This document shows, one piece after another, positions 4,057 to 54,389 of a stretch of DNA of 64,000 nucleotides. The DNA is from Deroplatys truncata (taxonomy: Eukaryota; Arthropoda; Insecta; Mantodea; Mantidae): positions 197,068,507 through 197,132,506 of the forward strand of contig CM060975.1 of the NCBI GenBank assembly GCA_030765065.1. The letters run 5' to 3'. The notes beneath the pieces were generated by a model. That model was given only the letters and a program-made list of their open reading frames with translations. It was not told the origin of the DNA and did not search any database. Each line of letters begins with the position of its first letter. Position 1 is the first letter of the stretch. Position numbers and translations under genes: made by a program.

Positions 4057-5303
4057 CTTTTTGTTTCAGGTATTGTTAAGAATGAATCTCCTAGTTTCAT
4101 AATCTGTATTTGGTGCGTATTACTGGTTCTTGCAGGAGCTATTACTATACTTTTAACAGATCGAAATCTAAACACACATTTTTTTTGTGGTGGTGATTAG
4201 AAATAATTGTACACGTGATTTTAAATGCGCCTGCGCACACGGCCAGATAGCGTTTAGAATTTCATAGCTGTTTTTCTCGCTTTCTATTTTTCTTACATTT
4301 TTACGCGTTCAAAATGCTCCACACGATGCAATTTTTGTTTCATGTCCTTCAAATTTTGTAGCAAAACACCCTAAACTACAGGCATAAAAATGCTTGGAGT
4401 CATTTTTATTTATGGGTTATCACTGGAGGAATATTAATTAGAATATGTAATTAACACAGTCAAATTACTAAAAAATATTGTTTTTCCCAAGTTTATGATT
4501 TTTTTTAAAACTAAACATCAATAAAAATCCGTTTCCAACATTTTCTCTTAATTATTCGCTAGAGTCAAAATATATATTTATATTAGTACAATTTTAGCTT
4601 TTTTATCTTAGGGCCTATTTTGGCCTATAAAAATTGAAAATTTGTATGCATGTCAATGATCTGACGTGTTACTTGTGGTATAACTTTCAAAACCGCGTGC
4701 ATAAATGCAGAATTTGGAAATTTCACTTATGTGTAGCCTTGAAATTTGCAGCTATTTTTTTTTCATGGAGCCTTTTTATAACAAATCTCTTCAGTAAATA
4801 AAAGATCGAGGTAAGTTTCGGCAAGAAGCGATTAAATTTCCTTTTTCAGCGTTATATGAACACTACTGAATTGCTTTGTAATGCTAATGTAATGCATGAA
4901 GAACAAAGTTAACTGTTGGCCAACAATTAGTTTTCAATAATGTCGACAGTTTCAACTGAAGGAAGCAGGAAAAAATCAAGCATATTTTTAGCTTTCATAA
5001 CTATTTTCATTCCGGCTTTTAGCAGCTCTAGAAACGGTGCGGAGAAGTTAAAACCTAATTATCATTAACTTCTTTAGCAATTAAGTTTTTATTCATGCTT
5101 CCGACAGGTCAGAAATATCTGTTTTTAAAGCCGCAGAAACAACATGATGGGAGGAAGAGGGAATAAGAAATGAGTTCATTCGTTTATTTTTCCACCAAAA
5201 AACCAGCGAGTAATTTTTAGGATTAGAAGAGCGAAATACGAGTAACATGAACTTGTAATAGTGTTAGAAATTACAAGGGAGAAAGTGCCACGAAAATGCA
5301 AAA
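4057..5303. other. No gene or repeat recognised
   Basis: AT-rich DNA with T-runs and only short broken frames. I see no protein motif, tRNA-like head or inverted repeat. Confidence 0.5.
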
Positions 5304-5462
5304 TATACAGCGTGAACCATTTAAAATGAGACTATACAATATCTCCAAAACTAAGCGTTGTAGAAAGAAATGTCTTGATATTATGGGGAAAGTAATTGCC
5401 ATTAGTTGTGTTTTGTTTGGAGGACGTTATGATGGTCAGTTTAGGTTAATTTAATTTTTTAA

Positions 5463-5765
5463 ATGAGAACCTACATTTTGTATGTTTTCTCATTCCTCAT
5501 AAAAAACTAAACAACCTTTGTATAAAGCACCATGCAATTGTTCTTACAGACGTAAAAATGTTGGTTCCGAATTACGAAACATAACTTAAACCTCAAATGA
5601 CCATCAATGGATGGTCCAACCATTCATGCGCTCTTCGTACACAGTCACTCAGAATTTTCGTTGCTATTTTCGTTGGTGTAAGAACAAATGCAAAATGCAT
5701 TATATAAATATTGTTTAGTTTTTATGAAGAGTGAGCAAACAACATAAAAAGGTAGGTTCCCACTT
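5463..5765. mobile_element. MITE M, about 300 bp with 85-bp inverted repeats
   Basis: The left arm 5465-5549 (GAGAACCTAC...ACTAAACAA...TTCTTACA) is matched in inverted order at 5677-5764 (TGTAAGAACAAATGC...TTGTTTAGTTTTTATG...GTAGGTTCC). The arms are about 80% alike. The centre (5550-5676) is non-coding. It lies between the left arm of P and an H copy. The end motif (GGGTTCC...TTTAAAAAAA) recurs just before the H copy at 43362. Confidence 0.7.
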
Positions 5766-5772
5766 AAAAAAA

Positions 5773-6660
5773 TCTGATGTGTTACACTCACATGACTTTC
5801 TCTACTCTTGTACAATCTATTTTTACAAACGCCTATTCTCCATATGCTTCATATTAATCGAGATATCGAGATGTCAATCTTATTTGTAATTTTCTTGTAG
5901 ATGCAAGGGGAATATTGTAGGTTTTAAGCGATAGTCAAATATTTTAACGCTGGTTGCTATGTGGCGCATTCCATTCTCTTTGCATGTCCAGGACATAAAA
6001 GAATGAATAACGAATTGGAGAAAAACTATAAGTATTGGAAAATTTAAGGGAATAACAAGCAATATCTCGCAAACGGTTCACTCAGCAAAAGAAATGTATA
6101 TGACATAAATTGTGTATTTTAACGCGATCTACATTTTTTGTGTAGTAAAAGTTTGTCTATCTCTTATGGTTTACCAGTTATGAAAAAGTCGTTCATAATA
6201 AAGAATACTTTTGGAGACATTCCCAGAAAATTCGAGATATACATTTTAATTATCATGACAATATCTTAAACATATGATATTTTAATCAAAATCGTTAGAG
6301 CCGTTTTTGAGAAAATTAAAATTTTCGAAAAATGTTCCATGTAAAGGGTAGTCTGGGGTGGGGGGATTTTCTTGAAAACCTTCGTGTCGCATCTCTGGAA
6401 GATACTGAACCTAAATACCAAGTTTGGTGTTTATCCGACTCTTCGTTTTTGAGTTATGCTGTTCACAGACACACAGACACACAGACAGACACACAGACAC
6501 ACAGACACACAGACAGACACACACACGGACATGTTTCCAAAAATGCTTTTTTTGGATTCAGTGAGTCTCAAAGCATGTATTTCCGGTGAAATCTCGGTAT
6601 CGAATTTTTGGGTGGAATGCAATACTTCCCCTACTTACTATACGTAGTAGAGAAAGTAAA
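5773..6660 (+). mobile_element. Repeat H, best complete copy (reference)
   Basis: Used as reference. The 5' end is TCTGATGTGTTACAC after an A-run (5773). The first sub-terminal repeat ACTTTCTCTACT is at 5795-5806, and its exact reverse complement AGTAGAGAAAGT at 6646-6657. A CACAGA/CAGACA microsatellite occupies about 6467-6525. A small hairpin, TACTA-TACG-TAGTA, lies at 6636-6649, about 10 bases from the 3' end. Length about 888 bp, non-coding. Sub-terminal repeats, inner GTCT/CAGA microsatellite and 3' hairpin are the described features of DINE-1/Helentron-associated elements; assignment to that group is inference. Confidence 0.8.
6467..6530 (+). repeat. CACAGA/CAGACA microsatellite within H
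   Basis: Mixed CACA and CAGA units between two conserved flanks (TATGCTGTTCACAGACAC and CACGGACATG). The same slot varies from 0 to about 70 bp between H copies, so it is a length-variable part of the element. Confidence 0.85.
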
Positions 6661-6828
6661 AATGAAATTGACCCTAAAGTGACCATCACAACGTCCTCCA
6701 AATGAACACAACTAATGACATTTAATTTTTCTCATAATATCAAGCAACTTTTATTCAAGAAATTTCTTCTTACAACTATTAGTTTTGGAGATAATGTACA
6801 GTCTCAACTTAAATGGCCAGCCTGTATA

Positions 6829-7000
6829 TATAAATGTTGCAACATCCGAACAACATTGTACAACGTAATGGGTGATTGTTACGAGTGCGAGACACTTAAC
6901 CTGAGTGACATTTGCCCAAGGTGACGTTTGCTCGGAATCATCCTTATGATTTCTCACAAATTAGCTTGCTAACTGAACACGGATAATATTGAAGTTAGAC
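6829..7000. other. No feature recognised
   Basis: Short AT-rich stretch between element P and SINE S2; nothing identifiable. Confidence 0.4.
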
Positions 7001-7849: not shown

Positions 7850-8290
7850 GAATCGTGCTAGATGGATCCATTGTACGTGTGAGGCTCGCATTCGGAAGGT
7901 CCCGGGCTCGATTCCCGTCTGGCCGGCCACTATAACCTTGGGTTTTTTCATGGTTTTCCCAGGTTGGTAGGCGAATGTTGGGGTAGTTTCTCTTCTCCCA
8001 CGAATTTCCTGCCAATCATTTCTTGTCATTTCCTTTCATCTTCATATGTTTTAGGGTTGTACAATCAGGCAACAGCGTTTTGTGCGTTGCGGCGAGACGG
8101 TCGAGTTCACGCTGTGTAAAGATTTCTCCCTGGTGATGGCGCTTGGCTGGCCGGCTGGACCCCCTTCCTGGGAGCGGCCGTTTCATTCCGGGACCTCCAG
8201 GTTGAACATGGCTAAGGCGAGATCGAGCCAACGTCAGGATTGATGTTATTCTGGAATCGTTAGTGACCCGCCCTTCATCCCTTCCTTCCG
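7850..8290 (+). mobile_element. SINE S1, tail type c, diverged
   Basis: The head has a tRNA-like box B (GGGCTCGATTCCCG near 7903). Next comes the shared S1 core (TTGGGTTTTTTCATGGTTTTCCC at about 7938-7962, then GGTAGGCGAATG), a TTTCATCTTCAT segment, and the type c tail starting GGGTTGTACAATCAGGCAAC. The type c tail is shared with copies at 35042, 49918 and 52131. Frames here on the minus strand are SINE-derived. Confidence 0.65.
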
Positions 8291-10554
8291 GCGCACTAAT
8301 CCTATGCAGACGTGATCACTTTTTTATTACGCATGCCTTTGATAAAGCTGCAAAAGTAAAGTTCTCTTGTAAAGAAAGGAAGATCAGAACATCATGAGCT
8401 CGCAAGACATGGAAAACAGACAAGTGTTGCTCTCTTGCAGGAGGAAATGTATTCTACTAGAAGGAAGACATGGGTTTCTGACAACAGTAATCTTTTTGGA
8501 TTCCATATGGCAGCAATGTTCAAAAGCCTGACCAGCTGATACAGTCCGGACTTTGCGCTCAGCGACTTCCGCTTCTCCTCGGCATTAAGAAGTGGAACCC
8601 TCACTATCACGTTGAAGCAGGAGTATGCATATTGGTCTATGACTAGGACACAGTTGCCCGGTGAGATTCATCAAGCTTGTGATGCTGAGGGACAATGCAG
8701 ATAAAAACATTAGTTTCTTTTTGTCCACCTCAATTTTTCTCTCTTGAGCAAAGTATCTTCCACTCGGGGAACTTATTTTCCGACTACCTGTTTATAGTCT
8801 GCTACCCCTATATTTTCCAAAAAAAAAAAATTGTCCAGAAAAAGCTGGTCAAAATAAAATCCAAATATTTTACTAAGCAACAGCGGCATCTTCTAGAGGG
8901 AAGAATCACGCTACTTTCTTCGAGCAGCATTATCTCTTTACTGCCTGAGGATGATCCGGATAGAATTATTACTACTCATTACGATAATACAATTAGAAGA
9001 AAACGAATACTAATGTGGATATCAACGGAAGGGTTTGGGTTCATAGAATATGTTTTATTCTACGTGGGCTTACTCTGCAATGATGGAAAAACTATAAGTG
9101 CTTAGTTTCCATAAGTATTTGTAAGGCCAGAACTGAAGTATTCGAAAATGAAGATTGTTAGCAATAAATGTTATTTGTTACTTACTAAGAAGGAGCAACG
9201 GAGACAATTACTAGAAAACGACCTCTTACATCGCATGAAGGTGAAAGCTTAGAAGAAAGGAGGCCCACATGATAGTAGTAAATACATACTTAGCTTTCAT
9301 CAACACACAGGTATGCGAAGAGACTGCTGATTGCCAATCATTGGATTTTATTGAACTAGTCGGTGAATTAGTAGAGTGATTGGTAATCCACATTCTATAT
9401 TTCTCCACTTTATTTAAATAAGTTATCTTAAACCGCATGAGATGTCCAAATCTTTCCGACCTTTTCACGATGCCATTCATTTCTAGAAATAAAGTAGTAG
9501 TCTTCAGATTACTAAGTGCATTACATAATAATCCACATCCGAATATTTTCAGCACTTTACTTGTGATTGTTGGCCCATAGGTGGTGCCCATATACTAATA
9601 GCACTATCACCAGTTATTAAGGAGTTATCTTGTATACAGGTCAGCCCATACTATACTACCTCGCAGAATTATTATCCAATGAAATGCCGCGTTAACAAAT
9701 AATATTTCTGTAGAAGGGCTGGAATGCAAAGAAGTGGGACCAACAAGACCGCTTGTTGGATCCCACGGGTTTCTGCTTCATGCCGCGGCAATTTAACGGA
9801 AAATAAAAGCTTGTGTCCTATAACGGACAAAAGATCTGCGATCTACACTGTCTATAAACACGTTCTTCAACACTAGAGACCACTGCCCACCGTATTTCAT
9901 ATCCATTCTGTGTTTGTTTCCACACTTTATTACTTCTGTAATTCTTGTACGGTAGATCAAAATGTTCTATTGTCCGATATTTTGGAATTCTGCACCTCAG
10001 CTACACAATGTTAGCGAACTGAAGGCGCTTTTCTCGGTTTATTTTGCTTGTTTTGGTTTTCCTTGTATTATATTCAGATACGTATATGATAAGTGGCAGC
10101 GTTTATCACCAGTTTTGCCGTTCTTCCTTGCTTATTTCAAAACTTTGAGCACTCTTTCACAGTTTTAATTAAAGTCTTTTTTCCCTATTTATTTTACGTC
10201 GCTTTAACTACGTTGTGATATCGCGACGGATCTGTTACGAGATACCTCGTGTATCGCGTGTGGCGGACAGTTAGCCTCTTGGGTATCATCCCTGTACCAC
10301 AGCATGCCTTCTTACTTCAACACGCGTCCACAGAGGCCTTAGTGCCAGGCAACTTACCTCTGCTTCTACACGTGCCGAGCATTGGCATTAGGGCGCCGTC
10401 CAATCTACCTGCTTTCATTATCTGTAGATAGATGGCAGAACATTCGCTATTATCATCTATTTTCAGTTTTACTATTGTTTTAGACTTAAGATGGAACTTT
10501 GGGTCGTGATATTAAATATCGAATCCGGGATTTATCGTGGCGACTGAGTAAACC
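8291..10554. other. Low-copy region, no supported gene
   Basis: About 2.3 kb without recognisable repeats. A 136-codon frame at 8695-9105 (+) and a 121-codon frame at 9226-9591 (-) are the longest. Neither shows a domain, repeat, membrane segment or flanking splice signals that persuade me, and their composition (rich in I, L, K, S, F) is what AT-rich non-coding DNA gives. It may be intronic or intergenic. Confidence 0.4.
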
Positions 10555-18757: not shown

Positions 18758-19022
18758 AAAAAATCTGTGTTACACTCACATGACTTTCTCTACTCCTGTA
18801 CAAACTATTTTTACAAACGCTTATTCTCCATCTACTTCATGTTAATCGAGATAAACATTTGCACTCTATCTTATTGCTAAGTTTCTTGTAGATGTAAGGG
18901 GAAAATATATTTACAAGGGCAATATAGAAAAGAACATACATATCTCTTAATAGCTGGTTGCTAGGTACAGCACCATTCCCTTTGCCACAGATTATAACTC
19001 TTTGCATATCCAAGACAAAAAA
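18758..19022 (+). mobile_element. Repeat H, left part only (array unit 2)
   Basis: Starts TCTGTGTTACACTCAC after the A-run, shows the CTCTACTCCTGTACAAAC subfamily end, and is cut at the A-run of CCAAGACAAAA. The full H copy then begins. Confidence 0.75.
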
Positions 19023-19734
19023 TCTGATGTGTTACACTCACATGACTTTCTCTACTCTTGTACAATATATTTTTACAAACGCCTATTCTCCATATGCTTC
19101 ATATTAATCGAGATATCGAGATGTCAATCTTATTTGTAATTTTCTTGTAGATGCAAGGGGAATATGGTAGCTTTTAAGCGATAGTCAAATATTTTATCGC
19201 TGGTTGCTATGTGGCGCATTCCATTCTCTTTGCATGTCCAGGACATAAAAAAATGAATAACGAATTTGAGAAAAAGTATAAGTATTGGAAAATTTAAGGA
19301 AATAACAAGCAATATCTCGAAAACGGTTCACTCAACAAAACAAATGTATATTATATAAGTTGTGTATTTTAACGCGATCTACATTTTTTGTGTAGTAAAA
19401 TTTTGTCTATCTCTTATGGTTTACCAGTTATGCAAAAGTCGTTCATAATGAAGAATACTTTTGGAGACATTCCCAGAGATTTCGAGATATACATTTCATT
19501 TCTCATGACATTATCTTAAACATATGATATTTTCATCAAAATCGTTAGAGCCATTTTTGAGAAAATTAAAATTTTAGAAAAATGTTCCATGTAAAGGGTA
19601 GTCTGGGGTGGGGGGATTTTCTTGAAAATCTTCGTGTCGCATCTCTGGAAGATACTGAACGTAAATACCAAGTTTGGTGTTTATCCGACTGTTAGTTTTT
19701 CAGTTATGCTGTTCACAGACACACACACACACAG

Positions 19735-19766
<32 letters not shown>

Positions 19767-19910
19767 ACACACGGACATGTTTCCAAAAATGCTTTTTTTG
19801 GAGTCAGGAGGTCTCAAAACATGTATTTCCGGTGAAATCTCGGTATCGAATTTTTGGGTGGAATGCAATACTTCCCCTACTTACTATACGTAGTAGAGAA
19901 AGTAAAAATG
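19023..19910 (+). mobile_element. Repeat H, full copy (array unit 3)
   Basis: A complete H of about 888 bp, highly similar to the reference at 5773-6660. Left end TCTGATGTGTTACAC, microsatellite of CA and CAGA units at about 19712-19770, 3' hairpin and AGTAGAGAAAGT near 19892-19903. It is followed without spacer by another H unit. Confidence 0.85.
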
Positions 19911-20375
19911 AATAACGAATTCCCATTTTAGAAAATAAGTATTGAAAAATTTAAGGGAATAACAAGCAATATCTCGAAAACGGTTCACTCAACAAAAAAA
20001 ATGTATATGACATAAATTGTGTATTTCAAGTCGATCTACATTTTTTGTATGGTAAAATTTTGTCTATCTCTTATGGTTTACCAGTTATGCAAAAGTCGTT
20101 CACAATGGAGAATACTTTTGGAGACATTCCCAGAAAATTCAAGATATACATTTTATTTGTCATAAAAATATCTTAAAAATATGATATTTTAATCAAAAAC
20201 GTTAGAGCCATTTTTGAGAAAATCAATATTTTCGAAAAATCTTCCATGTAAAGGGTAATCTGGGTTGGGGGGATTTTCTTGAAAACCTTCGTGTCGCATC
20301 TCTGGAAGATACTGAACCTAAATACCAAGTTTGGTGTTTATCCGACTGTTCGTTTCTGAGTTATGCTGTTCACAG

Positions 20376-20409
<34 letters not shown>

Positions 20410-20561
20410 AAAGACACACAGACACACACACGGACATGTTTCCAAAAATGCTTCTTTTGGATTCAGGATGTCTCAAAACATGTATTTCCCTTGAAATCTC
20501 GGTATCGAATTTTTGGGTGGAATACTTCCCCTACTTACTGTACGTAGTAGAAAAAGTAAAA
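19911..20561 (+). mobile_element. Repeat H, tandem unit starting at the internal junction (array unit 4)
   Basis: Begins AATAACGAATT, an internal H position, directly after the 3' end of the previous unit. This is the junction type also seen at 886/887. It runs to its own 3' end (GTAGTAGAAAAAGTAAAA). The microsatellite at about 20375-20435 is mostly CA. Confidence 0.8.
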
Positions 20562-21235: not shown

Positions 21236-24200
21236 AATTGGTTTGATTTGTTTTGAGATTTTAAGTGCAAAATTTTTTTTCCCTCCAAATTTAACGGTTT
21301 GTGCTCCGCGTGGTCGTGAAAAATGTAAAGTTCTTTCTGGCTGAAGGGTAAGGATTTTTATACTTTAAATTGTGATTCTCTTCTTCTAAATTTTGTTTCC
21401 ATCATTTCTGAAAGTCTGGTGTCGAAATTTCAATTTTGAGTTCATTTTTGCATTTTTTCCCATTGTCTGCCGGGTGACGCTAAAACTTCTGACTCCATTT
21501 TCCCCTTGTTTTGGCTTCATTTCCTTTAAACTATATCACTGTGTTCCGTTCTTCGTGCTGGTTATTTTCAAAAAAAATGTTTTGTGAAACTTGAGTAGTG
21601 AAACGAGCGAGATAGTTGTTTCAAAATGTGCTCGTCACGTGTTGGCTATCTGTTTGCAAATCTTGTTTTTTTGTGCTTATTAGCAGTGGTTTAGAAATGT
21701 ATAACTTTATATTCCAGTGATTGTGATTTCTAGCTATTTACTGCACTTTTCTGGGTCATTTTTCGTGTAACTTTTATGTACGCACGTGTGTTGTGTAATT
21801 CCCGCGTGGTCGTACATTTCAGCAATAATTTTTAGCTTGTGAAACCAGTAATCCTCAGCACGTGTTTTGGCGCGTTTATTTGCGTGTGCATATCAGATTA
21901 TATACATTTGATTTAAGAAAAAAAAAAGAGAAGTTTTGTGTGCTAGTTTAAATTACAAGTCTGTATTCTGCTCCTTTTTGAGAATATTAGCGGTGGTCAC
22001 AGTAAGTGTGACGTAGTTTTTTTTAACTTCCAGTTCGAGGTTTCTCACTGAAGCTATCATTTTGTTTTCTTCCATGTGTTCATTCTGATTCAAAATCTTG
22101 GTATTGTGTCCAAGTGGCTTGTGTAGCCGTGTGTTAGTTTAATTTTCTGATATTTCGCCGCGGGCGCCTTAATTGTGTTCTTTCTGCAACTTTTTATTTG
22201 GTTATGTTCTGATCTTGCTACTTACATTCATGTGATGCTATAAGTGTTTAGTTTGGTGTAATCTGTATTGCTTGGTCCTACTGTTTGTTTATTGGTTGCG
22301 TTATCTTTTGTGCTGCAATCATGCCTAAGCGACGTACTGCACAGAAATCTGATATAGTAATTGCTCCTGTTAGCGCGCACAGTGACGTAGACTCTTTGTC
22401 CAGTGTTAGTACGCCTGTTGCAAAGCAATCAGCTGTCTGCCGCCCGGTCATTGACCCCTCTCACGTGAAGAATCCCAGTAGGATGTCGGCGTATGAGTTA
22501 CTTTAGAATTTTGAAATGTAGGCTACTACTGCTATTGGCCGCTCTGAGAAAATCATAATGATGATAATTTTGCTTTACCGTTGCCAAGTTTGGTTTATTT
22601 AATTCCGCAATGCATATTTTTAGGGGAAAATCTTTTGCAGTTACTCATGTAAGTAAACGTTTCAGGAGCTACCAACCTTGCCAGTATCTGCACCTAATTA
22701 GGTTTGATGTGCTTCTGATATGGACCAGTACGATGTGGATGTTGATGAACCAGCTGTACGTGTGTTACCAGATTTTGGACAATTTGCACGGGAATTTTGT
22801 GGTAAACGAGTAAGAGGAAAGAAAAAAATCACCTGTAAGTATGTAATCATTGTGAGTGCTAAAGTTTGGATGAATGAAACAGTTTTACGACTCACACAGG
22901 TATGCTAAATTTATTGTTTCACTGACTGATGCTTAATTAAGCTTTGTTTTTCAGGAATATGTGATATGAATGTCTCTGCCAAATTAAAAGTGTGTTATTC
23001 TTGTGGGTGTAATTTAAATTTTGAACTGTGTTTTGGTAACTGCAAATCATTTGTTTTGTTTGTTGTATTATGCTGCAGGAATGTGTTTCAGGTGTACTAT
23101 ATGCTTAATTGAGCTTTCATTTTCAGGAATGTTATGTGACAATATTGTTTTGAATAATGATGTGATGTTGTTTTGTTGCATTCGATTTGATTTGATATGA
23201 TATGATTTGATTTTGGGTTTCATAATGATGCTGTGATCTTTATTTGCAGAAAATTGTTGCATGAATAGTGTTTGTATGTATGTGTGTATTTGAGGTTATG
23301 TGATATAGGTGAGATTTGCCTCGGTGGGAGTGCCAAAGTGTAACCCCGATGGCGTAGTGTGAGGTTATGTGAGAAATAAGAGTTGAGATTTGCCTCGGTG
23401 GAAGTGCCAAAGAGTAACCCCGACGGTGTTGATGTGAGATGAGGAGAGATGAGATGAGACGAGATGTCAGCTTCGGTGGAAGTGCCACAGTGTAACCCCG
23501 ACAGTTGTATCATTTCAGAGATTTTGCTTATTGGTGTTGCTGTAACGTGCCCAGTATAGCGTGTGTGATGAATTCCCACGAGAGATTATATAGATGGAAG
23601 TGAATGTAATGAAAATAATTTTTTTTCTCTGTTTATGCAACAAGTTTATTACCATCTTAGATAGCAAATGTTAATACCACCTGTTTTCCAGCTTAAATTT
23701 TCATTTTGAGGATGTAGATGCAACATTATAATGTCATGTTATTTGTGTAATTCCTGAATTGTTAATGTGATTTCTTGAAGGTTATGCCTATGTCAAATGT
23801 TTTGAATTTACAGCATGTTAAATGAGACACGTAAGTGCAGATGTTTTGTTTTCGAGAGAAAATTGAAAGATGATGATGCTTGAAGTAATGATCGAGATTG
23901 CACTATTACTGCTGATGATGTTGATAATGATTATGATTGAGTTGATGCTCATAATGAGATGAGAACGATAATGATGTGGACAAGAAGTTGTATTGGTGAC
24001 AAGAGTAGGACACTAGTAGTTGAAAGCATGTCACGTGGCGTAGTTTAGAAATGTATTGTGGATGTAGCTTGTAGTGATGCATACACTAGTTTGAGTAGAT
24101 AGTTAAGTCAGTGTTGTGTGTAATTTGGGGCCATGGTCAGTGTGAATGAGTTCATTTCATCGTCATGTGTGATTGTCTTGTAAGTGCACTTACTTTCTTT

Positions 24201-36655: not shown

Positions 36656-36658
36656 CGT

Positions 36659-37428
36659 TGTGTTACATTTACATAGGTTTCTCTACCCTCATTCATTTCT
36701 ACTGGGTCTACAAATTATTCTTACGAAAGTTTTTCCTATCTATTTCGTTTTAATCGAGATAAACCTTTCCAGAAATAGCAAATTTTAAATTTCTTACGCT
36801 CGCTTTAAAATCCGTACTCCTTCCATGATATTGTGAGAAATAACTGAAAATCGGCAGGACTTTAAAAGAATGACTAAATATTGAACAATTCAAACCATCA
36901 GTAACAAATATCTAGGAAATGGCTGATGTCATAAAAAAAATTGCTGGAAATAAATTGTGTGCTTTAAAGAGATCTGCATTTCTTGTGTAGTACGTTTTCG
37001 TCTATCCCTTAACATTTACCGTTATACAGGATAATACAAAGACTATTACCAGAAAATTCAAGATATGAATTCTTTTGTCAGGTGAATATCTTTAATATAT
37101 GGTATTTTACTAAAAATCATTAGACCAATTTTTTTAGACAAATAAAAAAATTTAGAACAATCTTCCATGTGAAGGGTAGTTTGGGGTGGGTTTTTTTCTT
37201 GAAAGTCTTCGTGTTGCATCTTCGGAAGGTATTGAACCCAAATATCAATTTTGGTATTTATCCTTAGTTTTATTTTTGAGTTATGCTGTTCACAGTCTCA
37301 AACACACACAATTGCATTTTTGAGATTTATAGGCCTTAAAATATGTATTTCCGGTGAAATCTCGGTATCGAATTTTTGGGTGGAATGCAATACCTTCTCT
37401 ACGTACAAAGTACGTGGTAGAGAAAATA
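36659..37428 (+). mobile_element. Repeat H, diverged subfamily
   Basis: Left end GTGTTACATTTACATAGG to 3' end GTGGTAGAGAAAATAA. The microsatellite is reduced to about 10 bp (AACACACACA near 37301). Differs from the reference by many substitutions and small indels, so it is an older copy. Confidence 0.8.
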
Positions 37429-38358: not shown

Positions 38359-39137
38359 TCTGATGTTTTACATTCACATGACTGATCTCTACCCTCTAGC
38401 GTTTATTAGTGGGTATACACATTTCGTTATAAATACAAAGGGAATAACGATAGTCAAATGGACACTACTGGCCTTAAAATTCCCTGTTGTTTTAGTGCAA
38501 TCGCGAGAAACAACTGAATATGAAAAGATTTGTAAAGAATGAGAAATATAGAACAATTCGAACCATTAATAACGGATATCTCGGAAATGGCTGATGCCAC
38601 AAAAACAACGTACTTTAAGTAAATTGTCTTTTAAAGAGATCCACATTTTTTGTGTAGTATATGCGTTTTTGTCTATCGCTTAACGTTTATAAGTTATACA
38701 AGATTATACAAAATTTCTTCCATATGAAGTGGGCTTCACAGACTATTCCCATAAAATTCAATATATGCATGTTATTTGTACTGCAAAATATCTTTGATGT
38801 ATGGTATTTTAATAAAAACCGTTAGAGGCATTGTTTAGAAAATAAAAGATTTCGAAAAATCTTCCATGTAAAGGGTAGTTTGGAGTGAGGATATTTTCTT
38901 GAAAATATTCCTGTCGCATTCTTTCGAAGGTACTGAACCCAAATACCAAGTTATCCTCCTTTTCCTTTTGAGTTATGATGTTCACAAACACACACAGATA
39001 CACTACACCTTTTTTCTAAAAATGCTTTTTTGTATTTAGGGGCCTCAAAACATGTATTTCCGTGAAATCTCGTTATCAAATTTTTGTGTGTAAGCAATAC
39101 CGTCTCTATTTACTATTTTCGTGTTAGAGAAAGTAAA
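38359..39137 (+). mobile_element. Repeat H, diverged subfamily
   Basis: Left end TCTGATGTTTTACATTCAC to 3' end GTTAGAGAAAGTAAA. A small deletion in the left segment joins GTGGGTATACA to CATTTCG. Microsatellite minimal. Confidence 0.8.
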
Positions 39138-39835: not shown

Positions 39836-40109
39836 AAATCAACCATCGGAGTCTGCACTGTACCAAATGGAGAATAAGTATATGTAGAACATCAGTACAT
39901 AGGTATTTGCAGAATCATGAGAATCTGTAAGGAATTGCCTCGTGGTTCATACGCTTGAATTTTAAGCTAAAAGCGTTAAACAATGCAATAGGGATACATT
40001 TACATGTTATATTCGCTTACTAAAGTGACACTGGTTTGGTAACGCAATACGAGTTAATAAACATTTAACGTTTTCTTAGTCTGATTTTCGATCTTTAACT
40101 AAAAAAAAT
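39836..40109. other. Spacer, nothing recognised
   Basis: No repeat match or frame. Confidence 0.4.
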
Positions 40110-40935
40110 TGATGTGTTACACTTACATGACCTTCTCCACTCTTGTACAAACTATTTTTACAAACGCTTTTTTTCTCCATATCTTCATGTTAATCGAGAT
40201 GTTAATCTTATTGCTAATTTTCTTGTAGATGCAAGGGGAATTGGTAGGCTTTAAGCCATAGTCAAATATTTTAAGAGCAGGTTGCTATGTGGAGTATTCC
40301 ATTCTCTTTGTATGTCCAGGACAAAAAAGTGAATAACGAATTTCCATTTGAGAAAAAGTATAAGTATTGGAAAATTTAAGAGAATAACAAGCAATATATC
40401 GAAAATGGTTCACTCAACAAAAAAATGTATATAACATAAACAGTGTATTTTAACGCGATCTACATTTTTTGTGTAGTAACATTTTGTCTATCTCTTATGG
40501 TTTACCAGTCATGCAAAAGTCGTTCACAATGAAGAATGCTTTTGGAGACATTCCCAGAAAATTCAAGACATACATTTTATTTTGATGAAAGTATCTTAAA
40601 TATACGATATTTTAATCAAAATCGTTAGAGCCATTTTTATAAAAATTTAAATTTTCGAAAAATGTTCCATGTGAAGGGTAATCTGGGAGGGGGGATTTTC
40701 TTGAAAACCTTTGTGTCGCATCTCTGGAAGATACTGAACCTAAATACCAAGTTTGGTGTTTATCCGACTGTCCGTTTCTGAGTTATGCTGTTCACAGACA
40801 CACATACAGACACACACACGGACATGTTTCCAAAAATGTTTTTTTTAAATTATTTCCGGTGAAATCTCGGTATCGAATTTTTGGGTGGAATACAATACTT
40901 CCCCTACTTACTATACGTAGTAGAGAAAGCAAAAA
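40110..40935 (+). mobile_element. Repeat H, near-full copy
   Basis: Left end TTGATGTGTTACACTTAC following eight A, CTCCACTCTTGTACAAACT subfamily end, short CA tract at about 40797-40820, 3' hairpin and GTAGAGAAAGCAAAA. It is followed immediately by another H left end at 40938. Confidence 0.85.
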
Positions 40936-41606: not shown

Positions 41607-41883
41607 ATTTTGCGTTGTCCTATACGATACAGATTTCTATCATTAATCCGGATGCACCTCAGCCTTGGGCTTATTGTGCAGTCTGTATCGTTCTAAATCC
41701 AATTAATTACCCTTGCACCCTTTACCAAGGAATACAGTCTCATAACAGATATGATTACAAACTCTTCTGATTCTAAAGGCATTTTCCCGAAGGCAACACA
41801 TCTCCTGTGACACTTGGGCTGTTTCAGTTTTTCTTGCACAATCTGCAATCTAAGTTATCCTGAAACACTTCCATCATACAACG
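41606..41883 (-). pseudogene. LINE L 3' fragment
   Basis: Reverse complement aligns with the LINE at 16420-16560. TATGAGACTGTATTCCTTGG / GTAAAGGGTGCAAGG corresponds to TATGAGACTGTATTTCTTG / TTAAAGGGTGCAG, and a following GAACGATACAG block matches AAACGATACAG. Upstream it extends into a CRLC-type zinc-knuckle-like stretch (GATTGCAGATTGTGC). Several stops; dead. Confidence 0.7.
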
Positions 41884-41928
41884 CTCAGTTTTGGAGATAT
41901 TGTACAGTCTCAACTTAATGGTCCAGCC

Positions 41929-41931
<3 letters not shown>
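41884..41931 (+). mobile_element. Element P right-end fragment
   Basis: GTTTTGGAGATATTGTACAG then TCTCAACTTAATGG and CCAGCCTA match 6782-6823 of the P right arm, ending at a TA-rich target. Confidence 0.7.

Positions 41932-41975
<44 letters not shown>
41932..41975. repeat. (TA)n microsatellite
   Basis: About 20 TA units at the end of the P fragment, consistent with expansion of a TA-type target site. Confidence 0.9.
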
Positions 41976-41978
<3 letters not shown>

Positions 41979-42021
41979 TCGATACCTTTGCAAGAGTAAT
42001 TTACTCTCTCACTAATTATTT

Positions 42022-42141
42022 TTACGTTCTCTACCACGCACCTAGTAGATAGAGGAAATATTTCATTCCACCAAATATATTGATATCGGGATTTCACCGG
42101 AAATACATGTTTTGAGGTCATCTGAATCCAAAAAAAGTATT
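42022..42141 (-). mobile_element. Repeat H 3' fragment interrupted by another H
   Basis: Starts TTACGTTCTCTACCACGCAC, runs to AATCCAAAAAAAGTATTTTT, and is then replaced by the 3' end of the next H copy, ACTTTCTCTACTACG, at 42144. Confidence 0.75.
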
Positions 42142-43097
42142 TTTACTTTCTCTACTACGTATAGTAAGTAGGGGAAGTATTGTATTCCACACAAAAATTC
42201 GATACCGAGATTTCACCGCAAATTTATGTTTTGAGACCCCCTGAATCCAAAATAAAAACCATTTTTGCAAAACATGTCCGTGTGTGTGTGTCTGTATGTG
42301 CGTCTGTGAACAGCATAACTCAGAAACGAACACTCGGATAAACACCAAACTTGGTATTTAGGTTCAGTATCTTCCAGAGATGCGACACGAAGGTTTTCAA
42401 GAAAATCCCCCCCACCCCAGACTACCCTTTACATGGAGCATTTTTCGAAAATTTTAATTTTCTCAAAAATGGCTCTAACGATTTTGATTGAAATATCATA
42501 TGTTTAAGATATTTTCATGACAAATAAAATGTATATCTCAAATTTTCTGGGAATGTCTCCAAAAGTATTTTTCATTGTGAGCGACTTTTGCATAACTGGT
42601 AAACTATAAGAGATAGACAAAGTTTTACTACACAAAAATGTAGATCGCATTAAAATACACAATTTATGTCATATACATTTTTTTGTTGAGTGAACCATTG
42701 AGATATTGCTTGTTATTCCCTTAAATTTTTTAATACCTATTTTCTCAAATGGGAATTTGTTATTCACTTTTTTGTCTTGGATATGCAAAGAGTATTAATC
42801 TGTGGCAAAGGGAATGGTGCTGCACATAGCAACCAGCTATTAAGAGATTGCTTAAAGGCTACTGTATTTCTATATTGCCCTTGCAAATACAAAACAAGGG
42901 GAATATAGTACGCCTTAAGCGATAGTCTAATATTTTTAGAACTGGTGGCTATGTGTAAAATGTAATTCTCTTTGCATGTCAAAAGATCGTTTCTACAAAT
43001 GCTTATCTCGATTAATATGAAATAGATGGAGAATAAGAGTTTGTATAAATAGTTTGTACAAGAGTAGAGAATGTCATGTGAGTGTAGCACATCAGAT
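42142..43097 (-). mobile_element. Repeat H, full copy with extra left segment
   Basis: Complete from the 3' end (ACTTTCTCTACTACGTATAG) to the left end GAGTGTAGCACATCAGA. Short GTGTGT tract at about 42280-42305. The left region is longer than the reference: the AGCAACCAG/GCTTAAAGG block near 42830-42870 recurs in variant form near 42915-42955. Total length about 955 bp. Confidence 0.8.
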
Positions 43098-43361: not shown

Positions 43362-44252
43362 TCTGATGTGTTACACTCACATGACTTTCTCTACTTCTGT
43401 ACAAACTATTTTTACAAACGTTTATTCTCCATATGCTTCATGTTACTCGATATATCGAGATGTCAATCTTATTGCTAATTTTCTTGTAGATGCAAGGGGA
43501 ACATGGTAGGTTATAAGCGATAGTCAAATATTTTAAGCGCTGGTTGCTATGTGGCGCATTATATTCTGTTTGCATATCCAGGACATAAAAAATTGAATAA
43601 CGAATTTGATATAAAGTATAAGTATTGGAAAATTTAAGGAAATAGCAAGCAATATCCCGAAGATGGTTCACTCAACTAAAAAAAATGTATATGACATAAA
43701 TTGTGTATTTTAACGCGATCTACATTTTTTGTGTAGTAAACTTTTGTCTATCTCTTATGGTTTACCAGTTATGCAAAAGTCGTTCACAATAAAGAATACT
43801 TTTGGAAACATTCCCAGGAAATTCAAGATATACATTTTATTTGTCATAAAAATATCTTAAACATATGATAGTTTAATCAAAATCGTTAGAGCAATTTTTG
43901 AGAAAATTAAAATTTTCGAAAAATCTTCCATGTAAAGGGTACTCTGGGGTGGAGGAATTTTCTTGAAAACCTTCGTGTCGCATCCTTGGAAGATACTGAA
44001 CCCAAATACCAAGTTTGGTGTTTATCCGACTGTTCGTTTCTGAGTTATGCTGTTCACAGACACACACACAGACAGACACACAGACACACACACAGACAGA
44101 CACACAGACACACACACGGACATGATTCCAAAAATGCTTTTTTTGACTTTCGGGGGTCTCAAAACATGTATTTCCGGTGAAATCTCGGTATCGAATTTTT
44201 GGGTGGAATACAATACTTCCCCTACTTACTATACGTAGTAGAGAAAGTAAAA
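43362..44252 (+). mobile_element. Repeat H, full copy in a second M-H-P unit
   Basis: About 890 bp, left end TCTGATGTGTTACAC, CACAGACAGA microsatellite at about 44058-44118, hairpin, and GTAGAGAAAGTAAAAA. It is followed by the P right arm exactly as at 6660/6661. Confidence 0.85.
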
Positions 44253-44407
44253 ATTAAATTGGCCCTTATATAACAATCACAACGTCCTCCAAACAAAACA
44301 CGATTTATGGAATTTATTTTCCCCCATAATATCAAGCAACTTTTATTAAAGGCATTTCTTTCTACAGCGCTTATTTTTGGAAATATTGTACAGTCTCAAC
44401 TGTATAT
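44253..44407 (+). mobile_element. Element P right arm
   Basis: TCACAACGTCCTCCAAA, TAATATCAAGCAACTTTTAT and TTTTTGGAAATATTGTACAG match 6686-6800 in order. It is cut shortly before the P terminus. Confidence 0.75.
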
Positions 44408-53744: not shown

Positions 53745-54385
53745 ATTTTATTACTTTCTCCACCACGTACCTAATAGGTAGAGAAGGTATCTATTGCATT
53801 CCAACCAAAAATACGATATGGATATTTCACTGGAAAAACACGTTTTGTGACCCCTGAATACAAACAAAGGCATTTTTAGAAAAAGGTCCATTTGTGTGCC
53901 TGTGAACAGCATAACCCAAAAACGAAAAGTCGAATCAACACCAAACTTAGTATTGGTTCAGTACCTACCAAAGATACGACACGAGGATTCTCAAGAAAAT
54001 CCCCCTATCCCAAACCATCCTTTACATGGAACATTTTTCGATACTTTTTTGTAGCATCAGCCGTTTTCGAGATATCCATTAATAATGGTTCGAATTGTTC
54101 AATACTTTGCCATTCTTGTGAAACCCTGTCAACATTCAGTTGCTTCTCGGATTACATGGAAACAGTAGGGGATTTTAAGGTCATCGTATAGCGTCCAGTA
54201 CTTAAGCATTTGACTATCGCTGTTCTTTTCGAATCTATAACGAAATGTGTAATGTAACTATTTCTGCAAAAGTTTATTTGAATTAAAATGAAGTAGATAT
54301 AAAAACAAGCTTGAGTAAGACAAGTTTGTAGACTCACTAATAAACGATAGAGGGTAGAGAATGTCATGTGAATGTATCACATCAG
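53745..54385 (-). mobile_element. Repeat H, diverged, internally deleted
   Basis: 3' end TATTACTTTCTCCACCACG, conserved block at 53890-54040, deletion of most of the core (TTTTTCGATAC directly followed by TTTTTTGTAGCATCAGCC), left end GTAGAGAATGTCATGTG to CACATCAGA. No microsatellite. Confidence 0.75.
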
Positions 54386-54389
54386 ATTT

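Follow-up and report, generated by a model that had tools for sequence, protein, structure and literature searches.

The 888-bp element H at positions 5773-6660 of the window (the whole 64-kb stretch of DNA that was analysed) is very probably a HINE, that is, a short element without coding capacity, mobilized in trans by an autonomous Helentron that resides in the same genome and has nearly identical ends. On the basis of sequence comparison we place the probability of this reading at about 0.95. In kind, H is likely to be ordinary, belonging to the known DINE-1/Helentron type, and the coding partner described below is its likely driver. The initial annotation had already proposed a non-autonomous, DINE-1/Helentron-associated class, and this is supported by the anatomy of H, by the partner and by the T-run insertion sites. 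The novelty of the family was judged by words rather than by sequence, in a literature search that ran without Repbase; among the matches listed there for Helentrons together with stick insects or cockroaches, no Helentron was named.

Anatomy and polarity of H

H runs on the minus strand, with its 5' end at 6660 and its 3' end at 5773. This polarity is well supported, since the ORF of the partner and the order of the partner's ends place the 5' end at 6660, and it is the reverse of that in the initial annotation, in which 5' and 3' were swapped. For DINE-1 elements without an ORF, the 5' and 3' labels are treated as arbitrary in the part of Yang and Barbash (2008; PMC2374699) that deals with them, and a single window can mislead as to the orientation of such elements. 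The order of features described for DINE-1 and HINEs in the available text of PMC2374699 and PMC7492417 fits H in one orientation only, that of the minus strand.

Read in the orientation of the element, with all features on the minus strand, a run of five T's (6658-6662), which extends beyond the bounds of the 888 bp first annotated, is followed by the 5' subTIR ACTTTCTCTACT (6646-6657), starting three bases in. Ten bases past the subTIR begins AGTAGGGGAAGT (6624-6635), a partial inverted repeat of it that is complementary at 10 of 12 positions, and the palindrome TACTA/CGTA/TAGTA (6636-6649) is located between the two. A GTCT/GT microsatellite (CAGA/CA on the plus strand) occupies 6464-6531, or about bases 130-198, in the first quarter of the element. 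The 3' subTIR AGTAGAGAAAGT (5795-5806) ends 22 bases from the 3' end and is closely followed by a candidate hairpin, ATGTG-AGTGTAA-CACAT (5777-5793), with a 5-bp stem and a 7-base loop, 4 bases from the 3' end; the terminal CAGA then gives way to a run of seven T's (5766-5772). With the T-runs set apart, the minus-strand ends of H read TTTACTTTCTCTACT and GTAACACATCAGA.

Several of these features had been noted in the initial annotation. An exact 12-bp inverted repeat between 5795-5806 and 6646-6657 was confirmed, and an exact 12-mer inverted match between the outer 60-base ends of H was obtained in 0/2000 composition shuffles; the inner CAGA/CA microsatellite is likewise present. The sequence TACTA-TACG-TAGTA was correctly reported but is not the 3' hairpin it was taken for, as it sits in the 5' module; the 3' hairpin proper would be that at 5777-5793. 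Similarly, the letters TC do occur at 5773, but they are the complement of the 3' end and not a 5' terminus. When folded as a single strand, the 5' module of H gave a z of -2.69. The fold energy of the 3' hairpin was about that of shuffles, and its arms are retained in most other copies of the window and in the coding partner.

The termini of H in element orientation are TTTACTTTC and CATCAGA. Terminal inverted repeats are absent (TTTACTTTC versus CACATCAGA), pairing being confined to the subterminal repeats. Neither a 5' TC nor a 3' CTRR terminus was found on H in this orientation, and central tandem repeats were not found in H except for the microsatellite.

This plan resembles that of DINE-1 (INE-1) of Drosophila as it appears in the available text of PMC2374699, which includes subTIRs of about 13 bp (12 in H), a partial inverted copy next to the 5' subTIR, a GTCY-rich microsatellite in the 5' block, a hairpin a few bases past the 3' subTIR (a candidate hairpin in H), the lack of an ORF and insertion into T-rich sites after W. 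The two differ in sequence, in the stem of the 3' hairpin (7-11 in DINE-1, 5 bp in H) and in the central tandem repeats, which H lacks apart from the microsatellite. Cg_HINE of Crassostrea gigas, as far as it is covered in the text of PMC7492417 available to us, shares with H a 5' subTIR with a complementary inverted repeat, a GTCY-type microsatellite and a palindrome past the 3' subTIR; unlike H, it has satellite-like central repeats, and its authors could not link it to an autonomous element.

The coding partner

Helitron_like_N was found in at least 152 places of the element's own genome (150 of 291 candidates scored) and in 0/14 control genomes, and in 18 of the matches listed it lies in an open frame of more than 2000 residues. 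Five of these 18 loci, picked for a plus-strand match and a long frame, were examined with 10 kb on either side. They contain an element of about 10 kb with both H ends (the 12-bp 5' subTIR and 11 bp of the 3' subTIR), so that a search for a Rep/helicase element sharing both ends, as suggested in the initial annotation, was successful. In 5/5 copies the H 5' module precedes the ORF on the same strand, and in 5/5 the 3' end reads GTGTAGAGAAAGTTATGTGAATGTAACACATCAGA followed by T's. Measured from their own 5' ends the partners are 9789, 10988 (with a whole H inside), 10033, 9854 and 10020 bp long. Each of the others was compared with the first, and over 7 kb including most of the ORF the five are 98.7-99.3% alike. 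The ORF is open in four of them, at 2324, 2408, 2408 and 2345 residues, and split in the fifth (459 + 2108). A repeat with a 63-base period lies inside the ORF, at about 8039-8948 of the joined 20-kb stretches (L079/L080 and other copies). The lengths of the open frames (2324, 2345 and 2408 residues) are spaced by multiples of 21 residues. Another set of Helitron_like_N loci (L047-L066) has the best Pfam scores and mostly broken or short frames, and is perhaps an older family.

The partner protein was scanned in one copy as two pieces, the first 1042 residues and the next 1366. The second piece matched Helitron_like_N (E 4.2e-28), PIF1 (E 1.5e-27) and further helicase models, placing Rep and PIF1 helicase in one ORF. 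The Rep reads YYQRVEFQMRGSPHEH, with the motif RGSPHEH, and the S of RGSPHxH is given as a Helentron mark by Thomas et al. (2014; PMC4067079). A second mark is present in part, the partner having Y-Q-R against the F/Y, w/l/y/k, R of that text. The C-terminal 263 residues matched Exo_endo_phos_2 (PF14529) with E 5.5e-6 and 26.7 bits, just below the Pfam cut-off of 27.4; the family was not listed for the longer second piece at E 0.01, and among solved structures these 263 residues had no match (best E 0.48). From its sequence, the C-terminus is likely an AP endonuclease in the same ORF, and in the available text of PMC4067079 the same Pfam family is reported for mite Helentrons. Counting against the Helentron reading, no second ORF of at least 200 residues, comparable with that for the RPA of mite Helentrons, was found in the partners outside the span of the main frame.

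Solved structural relatives were not found for the first piece, in which Herpes_teg_N (E 2.1e-9) and DUF6570 (E 5e-17) were matched as well (L079:6875-10000). For the second piece they were PIF1 helicases and Helraiser, an element from a bat. The helicase part of the partner (residues 647-1104 of the second piece) matched this canonical Helitron (PDB 7lcc) with E 3.4e-25.

The part that H and its partner have in common consists of the 5' module and the final 33 bases. Over the first 60 bases the partners are identical to H at 59/60 positions in two copies, 58/60 in one and 56/63 columns in two; identity amounts to 86-87% across the first 688 H bases and to 94% over the last 33, and over the last 60 bases 45/66 columns are identical. 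According to the rules of Thomas et al. (2014; PMC4067079), 11 identical subTIR bases define a family and 80% identity over the last 60 bp a subfamily, and by these rules H and its partner would belong to the same family and to different subfamilies. Since the last 60 bases of the partner are less than 80% identical to those of H, a closer driver may exist.

The pair is comparable with HINE-Mo and Helentron-Mo of the mite Metaseiulus (Thomas et al. 2014), for which the available text of PMC4067079 describes non-coding elements sharing their ends with a Rep/helicase/endonuclease element, T's of varying number at both ends and an unmodified target. Unlike in H, the mite subTIRs are palindromic, and the 3' subTIR and palindrome lie 38-60 and 8-35 bp from the 3' end, compared with 22 and 4 in H. 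An abundant HINE family with many near-identical copies, together with a coding element that has the same ends and a long open frame in several near-identical copies, makes a good starting point for studies of Helentron transposition.

Insertion into T-runs

All 44 full copies from the genome sample (see below) have a right T-run of 5-9. Their left T-run is 5 long in 33, exactly as in H, 6 in 8, 7 in 2 and 2 in 1, and the base preceding it is A in 33, C in 10 and G in 1; the chance that a random window position starts a run of at least 5 T's is 0.006. In the window, where older copies are included, at least 4 T's directly follow 11 of 16 3' ends (background 0.017), with no T at the next base in four, and a run of at least 4 precedes the subTIR at 12 of 17 5' ends.

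By flank alignment, a paralogous empty site of 5773-6660, and in part of 43362-44251, was located at 5378-5529 (plus strand), with one run of six T's. The joined flanks of 5773-6660 align with it over bases 4-160 of 160 at 80%, and those of 43362-44251 over bases 57-160 at 79%. The empty run of six T's compares with 5 plus 7 T's in the filled sites, i.e. about 5-6 extra, and bases other than T are not repeated. When the flanks of 19023-19906 are joined, they match the unbroken H copy at 42700-42847 at 93% over 149; a single C/T difference lies next to the run. Neither the empty sites nor the nested insertions examined show duplication of a base outside the T-run, which agrees with the reading in the initial annotation; a duplication confined to T's may nevertheless have occurred.

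Copies of H also land in one another. Judged from 10 bases on each side, 12 of the 44 full copies are located inside another H copy, at its run GTTATTCA-T-ATGTCC or a close variant of it. Nine further matches lie at a second block of T-runs and were given less weight, the right side in L035 and L046 being a tandem copy and not the parent, and L030 missing one A beside the run. The internal T-run turns H-type elements into targets for their own kind. One T-run of a host repeat is occupied at both 5773 and 43362, where the flanks are 77-80% alike and the elements 92%, and this suggests two separate insertions into the same run. The host repeat in question is found at 5303-5771, 6658-6829, 44249-44401 and 41874-41942 and is partly self-inverted.

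As for how such insertions might arise, we infer that the HUH Rep would nick the element at its T-rich 5' end, for which the subTIR and its inverted repeat serve as marks, that the PIF1 helicase would peel a single strand off and that replication would stop at the 3' hairpin beside CAGA. The strand would then be inserted at a T-run, probably at the junction of its first T with the base in front, which is usually A.

Alternative readings

One alternative is that a DDE transposase mobilizes H as a MITE-like element and duplicates only T's at the target. The 5-6 extra T's at the filled sites (5 plus 7 versus 6) would also be expected from such a duplication, and a TT duplication is discussed for DINE-1 in the available text of Yang and Barbash (PMC2374699). 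This reading is nevertheless very improbable, given that the termini of H are not mutually inverted and that the element with the H ends, for which the initial annotation had named a DDE type as the contrary outcome, codes for Rep/helicase instead.

Still less probable are two further readings, to each of which we give hardly any credence. In a SINE-like retroposon the A-runs that flank H copies in plus orientation would represent target and tail; H contains one loose A-box match and no B box, the bases outside the run are not duplicated and the Rep/helicase partner has the same ends. A derivation from a canonical Helitron might be read from the TC at 5773 and the palindrome near 6649, but that TC is merely the 3' end read on the complementary strand, the CTRR end is absent, and the partner has the Helentron S residue in its Rep and a C-terminus resembling an endonuclease. 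Canonical animal Helitrons, in the text of PMC4067079 available to us, have TC/CTRR ends and lack the endonuclease.

Nested units of H and its partner

In 5/5 loci a truncated H (bases 1-659) directly precedes the coding element. These inner truncated copies are 98.5-99.8% alike, while nine outer 300-base flanks are mutually dissimilar (the right flank of the fourth locus, where more H copies follow, was left out of this comparison), and it is therefore most likely that the moved unit includes the truncated H. The unit stands alone in the first locus, and in the other four it lies between H(1-662) and H(657-888), at one T-run; in the last locus it is inside H twice over, and in the fourth more H copies come after it. 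Similarity among the outer left H copies is 96.6-98.1%, and 94.3-95.0% for the second such copy in the last locus; among the right parts it is 91.3-99.1%. Since the outer H parts are mostly less alike than the inner ones, the sequences favour, without deciding the matter, separate landings in the same H T-run over one composite that spread; one pair of right parts at 99.1% points to a single spreading composite instead. We consider it possible, at somewhat less than even odds, that the moving autonomous unit is a fusion of H bases 1-659 and a complete coding element, with two tandem 5' ends, which relands in one T-run of H. The HINEs would then be landing pads for their own driver, building up Russian-doll arrays.

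H copies in the window and in the genome

The initial estimate of some 25 copies was about right, as H matched 38 nhmmer segments of the window, with one H end in 17 copies and the other in 16 (one weak row of 5.5 bits dropped), and the H end motif with at most two mismatches gave 16 matches against a mean of 0.06 in 100 shuffles. Two age layers are apparent, the long matches to 5773-6660 being 82-95% identical in young copies and about 57-73% in older ones. On the minus strand, a full copy at 19023-19906 interrupts a further H copy (18766-19022 and 19905-20560) at a T-run, a near-full copy with small deletions lies at 40108-40933, and a full copy at 43362-44251 occupies the same kind of host repeat and T-run as 5773-6660. 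The plus strand carries a copy with an internal deletion (898-1699) and a head-to-tail pair at 42021-43096, made up of a 5' module only (42021-42144) and an H copy with an internal insert (42142-43096). Older divergent relatives with similar ends are found at 36656-37428 and 38360-39137 (both minus strand) and, shorter inside, at 53751-54386 (plus strand).

Among nine two-ended copies in the window, the subTIRs pair at 12/12 bases in four, at 11 in one and at 7-10 in four, the young copy at 40108-40933 being one of the last four. GTCT/GT occurs within bases 115-203 in 6/6 H copies of the window, and in three older copies the GTCY-type microsatellite is represented by 8 bases in one, scattered matches in one and nothing in one. 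Older copies often end the 5' subTIR in C and begin the 3' subTIR with G, against T and A in H, a difference that reads as a change on both subTIR arms. Pfam gave no match in the 28 scanned of 101 stop-to-stop frames (at least 80 residues) in the window, none of the Helitron_like_N matches listed genome-wide lies inside it, and Rfam gave no match. The H end motif had no match in IMG/VR contigs or prokaryote genome contigs, and H had none in phage records; these collections are non-animal, and the results carry little weight.

A DNA search of the 4.29-Gb, 818-contig assembly returned 3281 first-look H candidates, a number that precedes scoring and is not a copy number, and 40 were scored. The sample taken from it comprises 38 loci with 44 full H copies besides those of the window, and being the best-scoring rather than a random set it is uninformative on older copies. 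With gaps left out, pairwise identity among the 44 has a median of 99.3% and a minimum of 95.2%. A recent phase of activity of H in this large genome is probable. The constancy of their ends carries no evidential weight, because the copies were selected as full length.

Head-to-tail arrays (five copies in L045 and two each in L035 and L046) were at first taken as possible proof of rolling-circle concatemers. This reading was dropped because junctions of the same type also arise when an element inserts at the A|T boundary of a T-run that follows a 3' end. Within the array of five, identity to H is patterned (two copies at 99.1%, two at 96.5% and one at 94.7%), as might result from the duplication of a pair. 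Elsewhere in the window, a 74-base tandem repeat of 2.5 copies is located at 23310-23502.
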